Shown here: piece after piece, positions 16,273-18,054 of the stretch
How the letters are laid out: the number at the start of each line of letters is the position of its first letter
Numbering within the stretch: position 1 is the stretch's first letter
Made by a program: the position numbers and the translations under genes
The notes under the pieces: model-generated
Told to the model about the DNA's origin: nothing
Databases searched by the model: none
What the model saw: only the letters and a program-made list of their open reading frames with translations
Assembly (NCBI RefSeq): GCF_030295935.1
Contig: NZ_AP027362.1
Span: 1,116,001 to 1,180,000 of the forward strand
Direction: 5' to 3'
DNA from: Thalassotalea piscium
GTDB taxonomy: Bacteria; Pseudomonadota; Gammaproteobacteria; Enterobacterales; Alteromonadaceae
Length of the DNA stretch: 64,000 bases

Positions 16273-17235
16273 CTATTTCTGCAAATTATTAATCGCGTGG
16301 ATTATGTCTTCCTTATTTTTTAGGGTTTTAATATCATTAAATAACCAATCAGCTTCATTAAACATAAGCTTTAAATACCGTAGCCATTGTTTTACACGGC
16401 TTGAAAAATAGAAGCTTTTATCTCCATTAAGTTCTAACTGAGCAAAGTGTTTAATTAGTTCACACAATTGTGGCCATGTCATTTGCTGTTGATTAAGTTT
16501 AATGACATTAGCCAAGTTCGGCATCGCAAGTGCGCCACGGCCAAGCATTAAATTTTTAGTGCCCGACTCTTTCATGCATTGCAGCGCATTCTCTTTCGTC
16601 CAAATCTCTCCATTAGCGAATAGTTCAATCGGATATTTCTTACTAATATCACCAATTAAATGCCAGTAGGCGGGAGGGCGGTAACCATCAGACTTTGTGC
16701 GGGCATGAATAGTGAGCTGATTAGCATTTGCCGATACTACTGCACTAACGATTTCATCAAGTAAGTTATTATCATCAAAGCCAAGTCGAATTTTTGCTGA
16801 GACAGTAGCTGTTGTAGGTAAAGCTTGTTTCACAGCTAACACTATTTGATAAATATCTTCAGGGGTTTTTAATAAAATAGCACCACCTTTACTTTTATTA
16901 ACCGTTTTAGCAGGGCAACCAAAGTTAATATCAATGCCATGAGAGCCCAATTCTATCGCTTTTATAGCATTTTCAGCCATCCACTGAGGGTGCTGCCCTA
17001 AGAGTTGAACTCTTATTGGTGTGTTACTTTTGGTATAGCCTATGTTGGCTAACTCTGGGCAAACTTTATGGTATATATGTGTTGGAACAAGCTTATCTAC
17101 TACGCGAATAAATTCTGCAATACAAAAGTCGTAACAATTTATTGATGTTAAAATTTCGCGCATTGTTGCGTCAGCTACACCTTCCATAGGCGCAAGCACG
17201 ACTTTGTTTACTGACAGCATTTTATTATTAGACAT
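16273..17235 (-). CDS. dusC: tRNA-dihydrouridine(16) synthase
   Basis: DusC reduces uridine 16 of tRNAs to dihydrouridine with FMN and NADPH. The 320-residue product has the FMN-barrel start VVLAPMEGVADATMRE, the DusC-type CIAEFIRVVD and HIYHKVCPEL, and the catalytic Cys in DINFGCPAKTVN. KSKGGAILLK, TIHARTKSDGYRPPAYW, LFANGEIW and MLGRGALAMPN follow. The long C-terminal helical segment (FYFSSRVKQWLRYLKLMF) is characteristic of DusC over DusA or DusB. It is divergent from the Cys-rich repeat gene, with about 140 bases between. Confidence 0.95.
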   Translation of the reverse strand: MSNNKMLSVNKVVLAPMEGVADATMREILTSINCYDFCIAEFIRVVDKLVPTHIYHKVCPELANIGYTKSNTPIRVQLLGQHPQWMAENAIKAIELGSHGIDINFGCPAKTVNKSKGGAILLKTPEDIYQIVLAVKQALPTTATVSAKIRLGFDDNNLLDEIVSAVVSANANQLTIHARTKSDGYRPPAYWHLIGDISKKYPIELFANGEIWTKENALQCMKESGTKNLMLGRGALAMPNLANVIKLNQQQMTWPQLCELIKHFAQLELNGDKSFYFSSRVKQWLRYLKLMFNEADWLFNDIKTLKNKEDIIHAINNLQK

Positions 17236-17373
17236 ATTAATCGCTTTGGCATAAAGTTATATCATCCCCTAGGTGTGTTTTTTAAATTTTTTGAAATTTA
17301 TATCTGCAGATCAAGGTCAATGTAAATAGCTATTAATTTCAGTAGTGATTATATTTAAAATTAAAAAGGAAAT

Positions 17374-18000
17374 ATGATGAATATTATAAAAAAATCTTCA
17401 CTTGCTGTTTTATTAAGCATTTTTGCTCTTTCTTCAGTGGTCAGCAATCTTGCGAAGGCTGAGTCTAACCCATTTGAATCACAAGGTGTTATTGTTAGTG
17501 TGGATCAAGAGCAGAAAGACAAATGTGGTGAAGGCAAGTGTGGCGAAGCCAAAATGAAAGCGCACAAAGGTAAGTGCGGCGAAGCCAAAATGAAAGAAAT
17601 GAAAGGTAAATGTGGTGAAGGCAAGTGTGGCGAAGCTAAAATGAAAGCGCACAAAGGTAAGTGCGGCGAAGCCAAAATGAAAGAGATGAAAGGCAAATGT
17701 GGTGAAGGCAAGTGTGGCGAAGCTAAAATGAAAGCGCACAAAGGTAAGTGCGGCGAAGCCAAAATGAAAGAGATGAAAGGTAAATGTGGTGAAGGCAAGT
17801 GTGGCGAAGCCAAAATGAAAGCGCACAAAGGTAAGTGCGGCGAAGCCAAAATGAAAGAGATGAAAGGTAAATGTGGTGAAGGCAAGTGTGGCGAAGCTAA
17901 AATGAAAGCGCACAAAGGTAAGTGCGGCGAAGCCAAAATGAAAGAGATGAAAGGTAAATGTGGCGAAGCAAAAGAGAAATCTAAAAAGTGCGGTGGCTAA
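17374..18000 (+). CDS. HvfA-like Cys-rich repeat protein, candidate RiPP metallophore precursor
   Basis: The 208-residue product has a signal peptide (residues 1-29, ending NLAKA) and a short mature N-terminus with ESNPFESQG. It then has five tandem 29-residue units (residues 50-194), each carrying three KCG motifs: KCGEGKCGEAK, KGKCGEAK and MKGKCG at the junction. The tail ends KKCGG. There are 17 Cys in total and almost no aromatic residue. EGKCG repeats behind a Sec signal and an NPF element match HvfA, whose EGKCG cysteines are converted by an HvfB/HvfC (DUF692 MNIO) pair to copper-binding oxazolone-thioamides. No such enzyme gene is visible in the window. AAAAAGGA precedes paired ATGs. 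A plain metallothionein-like secreted metal binder is the alternative. Confidence 0.75.
   Translation: MMNIIKKSSLAVLLSIFALSSVVSNLAKAESNPFESQGVIVSVDQEQKDKCGEGKCGEAKMKAHKGKCGEAKMKEMKGKCGEGKCGEAKMKAHKGKCGEAKMKEMKGKCGEGKCGEAKMKAHKGKCGEAKMKEMKGKCGEGKCGEAKMKAHKGKCGEAKMKEMKGKCGEGKCGEAKMKAHKGKCGEAKMKEMKGKCGEAKEKSKKCGG
17521..17955 (+). repeat. Five 87-bp in-frame tandem repeats
   Basis: Units start at 17521, 17608, 17695, 17782 and 17869, each beginning AAATGTGGTGAAGGCAAGTG. They differ only at scattered positions (for example GAAATG or GAGATG, GGTAAA or GGCAAA, GCCAAA or GCTAAA), most of them silent. A sixth partial unit begins at 17956. Such identity implies recent expansion or homogenisation by slippage or recombination. 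Confidence 0.95.
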
Positions 18001-18027: not shown

Positions 18028-18054
18028 AAAAGCCATCGCGAAGATGGCTTTTTT
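18028..18054 (+). terminator. Rho-independent terminator after the repeat protein gene
   Basis: AAAAGCCATC pairs perfectly with GATGGCTTTT around GCGAA and extends into a T run. It lies 28 bases after the stop, so the repeat gene is transcribed alone. Confidence 0.88.

Follow-up and report, generated by a model that had tools for sequence, protein, structure and literature searches.

Gene and protein at the locus

The window, a 64,000-nucleotide stretch of the Thalassotalea piscium genome (NZ_AP027362.1, positions 1,116,001 to 1,180,000, forward strand), carries at 17374-18000 a gene for a Cys-rich repeat protein, with a divergent dus gene upstream and, as its other neighbours, an SDR gene and a dienelactone-hydrolase-like gene; as originally predicted, no modification gene adjoins it. 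The following features were assigned.

16273..17235, minus strand: dus, divergent, tRNA-dihydrouridine synthase family (PF01207), beside hvfA in 45/60 orphan loci
17292..17319, plus strand: ECF-sigma-like promoter, TGAAAT-N17-GGTC[T/A], a motif common to MNIO-linked hvfA loci, with a final A in the window
17374..18000, plus strand: putatively hvfA-derived orphan gene, 208 aa, 17 KCG (ORF call, motif count, NCBIfam profile)
17374..17460, plus strand: Sec-type signal peptide, residues 1-29 (by eye from sequence and alignment; AF2 helix 3-29)
17467..17475, plus strand: NPF element (alignment, motif count)
17521..17955, plus strand: five 29-aa units, identical as protein, with synonymous differences only
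18028..18054, plus strand: intrinsic terminator, hairpin and T run (fold compared with shuffles)

A Sec signal peptide was recognised by sequence reading and alignment, its cut after LAKA being a judgement by eye. Motif counting gave EGKCG five times, HKGKCG five times and MKGKCG five times, with DKCG as the first site and KKCGG at the end, and all 17 Cys of the protein lie within Cys-Gly (17/17). Aligned as DNA, the five 29-aa units vary in 3 of 87 columns, each at a third position and synonymously. This make-up (signal peptide, NPF, five 29-aa repeats, 17 KCG with EGKCG once per repeat, terminal KKCGG) agrees with the original prediction. Matches to the protein were found in 36 of 59 genomes searched, its own counted, so 17374-18000 is no chance ORF; two of the 36 (G047 and G050, from other families) were left out of further analysis. 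The AF2 model consisted of a signal helix followed by pLDDT <50 from residue 40 (mean 45.3, pTM 0.19), and one linked HvfA was modelled no better (mean pLDDT 40.8, pTM 0.12); these low-confidence models neither support nor exclude the beta-helix described for a mid-size relative (PMC12452194).

Family assignment and search for modifying enzymes

The repeat-domain profile NF050137 (KCGExKCG_twice, 'HvfA family oxazolone/thioamide-modified RiPP metallophore') matched the protein at 132.4 bits (cut-off 19.5), and the HvfA equivalog profile NF050188 scored 56.7 bits, below its cut-off of 95; the predicted HvfA-type kinship therefore holds at the level of the repeat domain and does not extend to the equivalog. 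No Pfam family matched the protein.

The genome itself is one contig of 3.9 Mb and 100% complete. Modifying enzymes were sought in it by profile search as the families PF05114 (MNIO, DUF692) and PF09836 (DUF2063), each with zero matches; across the 196 genomes of the window's family, its own included, PF05114 was positive in 146 genomes and PF09836 likewise in 146. Since neither an MNIO nor a DUF2063 match is present, the RiPP reading loses its enzymes. The gene is an orphan, as had been claimed, and lack of a DUF692 gene is one of the two observations that the original prediction had set against its own RiPP reading. Of the two options it had offered, modification by enzymes encoded elsewhere finds no PF05114 or PF09836 match in this complete genome, and the other, an unmodified secreted metal binder, is favoured by the same absence. 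Two DoxX genes, proposed as further partners, do occur in the genome, both outside the window. The oxazolone-thioamide product named for HvfA has since been replaced by 5-thiooxazole (PMC12668002, PMC13419390). The automatic name of NF050137 calls for caution, as it labels the protein a modified metallophore though its genome has no match to such an enzyme.

Distribution

NF050137 was found in 144 of the 196 family genomes, the window's own included; PF05114 was absent from 28 of these 144, and PF09836 was found in 0 of the 28. In a pyrG and eno tree of 41 genomes, all 12 sampled orphan genera (12/12) fell in one clade with UFBoot 100, inside which G032 (no hvfA, 80% complete) was also placed. 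PyrG identity to the window's was at least 83% in 64 of the 196 family genomes, with the next value at 81%, and the clade was taken as these 64 plus G007, which has an interrupted pyrG and was placed by the tree, giving 65 genomes (PyrG identity 83-91%). The G007 pyrG (G007:C1:3455766-3457401) reads as two pieces; the gene is expected to be needed for growth, and an assembly error is possible.

An hvfA-like gene was present in 60 of the 65 clade genomes, with no match in G032, G069, G103, G107 and G124. PF05114 was absent from 31 of the 60 orphan-bearing genomes and present somewhere in the other 29. A tblastn search of the hvfA flanks (about 1.5 kb per side or to the contig end, and about 9 kb per side for 12 loci) found MNIO or DUF2063 in 0 of the 60 clade loci. 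The 15 orphan flanks in which dus was not found belong to 14 genomes of genera g63 and g76, and to G166. Precursor genes of the Buf_EGKCG/oxazolin type have been reported from MNIO-less genomes (67 of 2583 genomes; PMC12452194, Table 3), and that report leaves open whether they are unmodified or non-functional. The general possibility had been raised already; in the literature searched (open-licence full texts only) no prior account of this clade was found.

Locus order

Outside the clade, the ancestral order is dus (divergent), hvfA, MNIO, DUF2063, (RR), apt and dnaX, as in the Colwelliaceae genomes G018 and G020, and dus-hvfA-hvfB-hvfC-apt-dnaX was found in Shewanella benthica, S. fidelis and S. 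gelidimarina, and in Pseudoalteromonas aurantia, P. arabiensis and Pseudoalteromonas sp. XMcav2-N. TPR/TonB genes follow dus in these Pseudoalteromonas loci and in G018 and G020; none were seen beside dus in the three Shewanella loci. In G003, G008, G012, G013 and G027, hvfA stands at the ancestral site without hvfBC, and the orphan locus of Thalassotalea loyana reads TPR, dus, hvfA, RR, apt, dnaX, with hvfB and hvfC missing. In the window and several relatives the dus-hvfA pair has a second context, with an SDR gene and a methyltransferase-like gene beside it.

Such a divergent pair in two chromosomal settings looks as though both genes had moved together, and hints that they have a regulatory region in common. 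Dus was considered as a modifying enzyme and rejected, because it also adjoins hvfA in several loci that retain hvfBC.

The named loci came from a search with a Dus alignment, from which the best 80 of 590 were fetched; hvfA or MNIO lay nearby in 11 of these best 80 (6 enzyme-linked and 5 orphan), and at least 4 of the 5 orphan loci repeat genomes already in the set (identical protein). A locus search queried with the orphan protein itself returned no confirmed relative. The hvfA protein of G001, a genome of the window's family, is identical to one in NZ_JAGHQT010000013.1, titled Endozoicomonas sp. G2_1, a genus label that looks wrong.

Promoter and terminator

With 10 of 11 as the lowest accepted score, and every genome searched at its own locus, TGAAAT-N16/17-GGTCT was found within 200 bp upstream of the gene in 56 of 58 orphan and 19 of 23 linked loci, against a background of 2.3% of 1160 shuffles (orphan) and 1.3% of 460 shuffles (linked). 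Upstream of hvfA in the 11 named loci, TGAAAT is exact in 9 and replaced by TGAAAG in a tenth, and no motif was found in P. aurantia. The -10 element resembles those of ECF promoters, and the promoter is on this likeness predicted to be ECF-dependent. The meningococcal SigE promoter (PMC2893595) has a similar -10 (CGTCTAAH) and differs in -35 and spacer. In H. influenzae the hvf operon is induced by hypochlorite via RpoE2 (PMC7907618). The available text of PMC3240639 yielded no promoter consensus. The Caulobacter SigF promoter, given as GTAACC-N16-CGAA (PMC3511200), was also compared and rejected, as the motif found here differs from it.

A genome-wide search of the window's own genome gave 7 matches against 4 in a reversed control, and no usable regulon list. 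Promoter-like sites precede a cutA-dsbD-like pair (C1:411399-411426) and a secreted thioredoxin-like gene (C1:3640928-3640955), the genes being named by eye; the two look as if they were part of a thiol/metal regulon, at a number of matches near the control's.

Downstream of the gene, the segment 18018-18060 has a predicted folding energy of -16.3 kcal/mol (z -5.0), matched by 0 of 200 shuffles, and its strong hairpin and T run bear out the terminator that had been claimed; a simple terminator scan did not list the 18028-18054 hairpin.

Comparison of enzyme-linked and orphan precursors

The linked set comprised 23 MNIO-linked precursors (19 from the window's family, 4 from other families of the order), a sample of a larger set, as 116 family genomes have both NF050137 and PF05114. 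The orphan set comprised 58 complete sequences of 61, after dropping G135 and G143, which contain runs of N, and G178, which is interrupted by contig ends.

An LxxGY motif between the signal peptide and the first Cys was present in 23 of 23 linked and 0 of 58 orphan proteins; in linked precursors it comes after NPF, and GY is also present in the six named linked Shewanella and Pseudoalteromonas proteins. Glu occupied position 1 of the Cys-Gly sites in 278 of 278 linked cases and in 289 of 660 orphan ones, where Lys is the commonest residue after Glu. In the window's protein LxxGY is absent and position-1 Glu is found at 5 of 17 sites. Within the signal peptide, a stretch resembling Gly-Ala-Val-Val was counted in 22 of 23 linked proteins and in 4 of the 38 orphans counted, and is missing from the window's signal peptide. 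NPF itself was present in all 58 orphans and in 15 of 23 linked proteins, the other eight having SPF, APF, TPF and, in one, MAF. Mature-region Cys is always followed by Gly in both groups, and the number of Cys per protein has a median of 11 in both (range 3-19 in orphans, 6-26 in linked). In one sub-lineage (G021, G089, G122 and G151; loci L071:9046-9594, L119, L178 and L179) the units have changed to KSCGEGMKHKDK; KCG persists in G171, a member of that genus.

HvfA without its signal sequence receives fewer than one modification (PMC13419390), and a variant whose two repeats both have Arg at position 1 goes unprocessed by FonBC (PMC12668002). The loss of LxxGY and of consistent position-1 Glu in orphans fits these recognition data. 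FonBC tolerates single Ala changes at position 1 (PMC12668002), so position 1 is not absolute and loss of Glu alone would be no bar to modification. LxxGY may be read by HvfC or HvfB, and the comparison nominates LxxGY together with position-1 Glu as candidate HvfB/HvfC recognition determinants. The original prediction had regarded the alternation of EGKCG, HKGKCG and MKGKCG as unusual and as possibly setting modified sites apart from unmodified ones. At least one site without position-1 Glu was found in 58 of 58 orphans and in 0 of 23 linked proteins, all 23 of which have Glu throughout; the alternation is therefore not peculiar to the window's protein, and mixed EGKCG/KGKCG contexts seem better read as a loosening of enzyme specificity than as a site code.

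Selection on the orphan gene

Across 30 orphan pairs of >80% identity the median dN/dS was 0.082 (maximum 0.22), and in nine close pairs in which neither genome has an MNIO it was at most 0.15. Lowering the threshold to >60% identity gave 223 pairs with a median of 0.149 and a maximum of 0.317, after 74 saturated pairs had been dropped. Orphan hvfA is, by these ratios, under purifying selection, with the caveat that repeat gene conversion may lower dN and that the pairs are non-independent.

Proposed history and function

The gene product is likely a stable, secondarily unmodified, hvfA-derived thiol protein, whose enzymes would have been lost and whose Cys-Gly thiols may bind a soft metal and/or oxidants. 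Sequence features carry this reading: absence of the enzymes, a shared locus, monophyly, the lost leader motif and consistent Glu, the promoter-like site and purifying selection. The source of the gene would be the hvfA of an operon hvfA-hvfB-hvfC. Both hvfB (MNIO) and hvfC (DUF2063) would then have disappeared, most simply once, in the ancestor of a single Colwelliaceae clade, with hvfA and its promoter kept. Besides its export signal the protein would retain a stress promoter of ECF type, and would work without 5-thiooxazole, presumably with no other enzyme acting on it. In the periplasm, its probable location, plain Cys-Gly thiols on a flexible, Lys-rich chain may bind a soft metal, e.g. 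Cu(I), and/or be consumed by oxidants, the metal binding being argued by analogy with relatives for which Cu binding was shown in the modified form.

That the protein is unmodified and serves as an oxidant sink (a thiol buffer) rather than a metal binder is possible, if doubtful. Induction of the H. influenzae operon by hypochlorite through RpoE2 (PMC7907618) speaks for it, as do, weakly at 7 matches against 4, the promoter-like sites before the cutA-dsbD pair and the thioredoxin-like gene; against it, the nearest characterised relatives bind Cu(I), and these pathways are often induced by excess metal (PMC12668002).

Modification of the cysteines by an enzyme of another family is unlikely. For it speaks the strict conservation of Cys-Gly sites despite their relaxed MNIO-type context; against it, no new gene common to the orphan loci was seen beside hvfA, their flanks holding either dus, RR, apt and dnaX, as in the ancestral order, or the SDR of the second context.

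Modification in trans, by an MNIO at another locus, is very improbable. The option was named for unlinked precursors in PMC12452194, and 29 of the 60 orphan-bearing clade genomes have some PF05114 gene, but there is none in the remaining 31 (the window's own genome and 30 others), and none of the 58 orphans has LxxGY, whether or not an MNIO is encoded elsewhere in its genome. The clade MNIOs inspected (ten loci, seven genomes) are 29-43% identical to a linked HvfB, and in 5 of the 7 genomes at least one adjoins its own Cys-rich, precursor-like ORF: a 4-Cys or 13-Cys ORF was found beside MNIO in G001 (two loci), G007 (two of three), G013, G030 and G064, and none was found by the filter in G025 and G102. 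Judged by their Cys patterns, we take these ORFs to be arranged as in bufferin clusters. The inspected MNIOs, from 7 of the 29 MNIO-bearing orphan genomes, look dedicated to other substrates. At the third G007 MNIO locus (L184:3333-3956) a 207-aa, 15-Cys ORF lies directly before MNIO and may be a further precursor type.

Least probable of all is a decaying relic left over after enzyme loss, to which the lost leader motif and consistent Glu, the five clade genomes without the gene, the sub-lineage moved to KSCGEG units and a G071 copy shrunk to 75 aa and 3 Cys would point, but against which stand retention in 60 of 65 genomes with PyrG 83-91% identical to the window's, a dN/dS near 0.08 (no higher than 0.15 in the nine MNIO-free close pairs), a promoter-like site kept in 56 of 58 orphans, and mature-region Cys confined to Cys-Gly sites as in linked proteins.

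Relation to known systems

With HvfA, the oxazolin precursor of the hvfABC operon, the orphan protein shares a Sec signal peptide, KCG/EGKCG repeats, the NF050137 domain and, putatively, operon-type descent; it differs in a genome without HvfB/HvfC match, no LxxGY, position-1 Glu at 5/17 sites and a score under the NF050188 cut-off. Metallothioneins, too, are short, flexible chains rich in plain cysteines; set beside them by description, the orphan protein differs in being apparently exported and Lys-rich, with its Cys in spaced KCG sites. FonA (fontiphorin, a captophorin with 5-thiooxazole) resembles it in EGKCG-type repeats and a link to metal stress, but is modified by FonBC at each Lys-Cys (PMC12668002). 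FonBC refuses Arg at position 1 when both repeats carry it, and that position is in the orphans most often held, next to Glu, by Lys, a residue absent from the variants described in section 11 of PMC12668002. The MNIO-less Buf_EGKCG/oxazolin cases of PMC12452194 likewise have a precursor gene in a genome without the enzyme, and differ in that here one clade combines enzyme loss, retention, selection and motif decay.

It seems fairly probable, from comparison of the sequences, that the precursor has outlived its RiPP as a clade-wide, stand-alone stress protein with unmodified thiols, having kept promoter, export signal and cysteines and shed its recognition features. The orphan clade would then be a natural experiment that parts the peptide from its modification, and from the comparison of linked with orphan proteins one can predict the precursor residues that the enzymes recognise. 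Should selection maintain the plain-thiol form under that same promoter, 5-thiooxazole would be an upgrade, and not the essence, of these metal/oxidant proteins.
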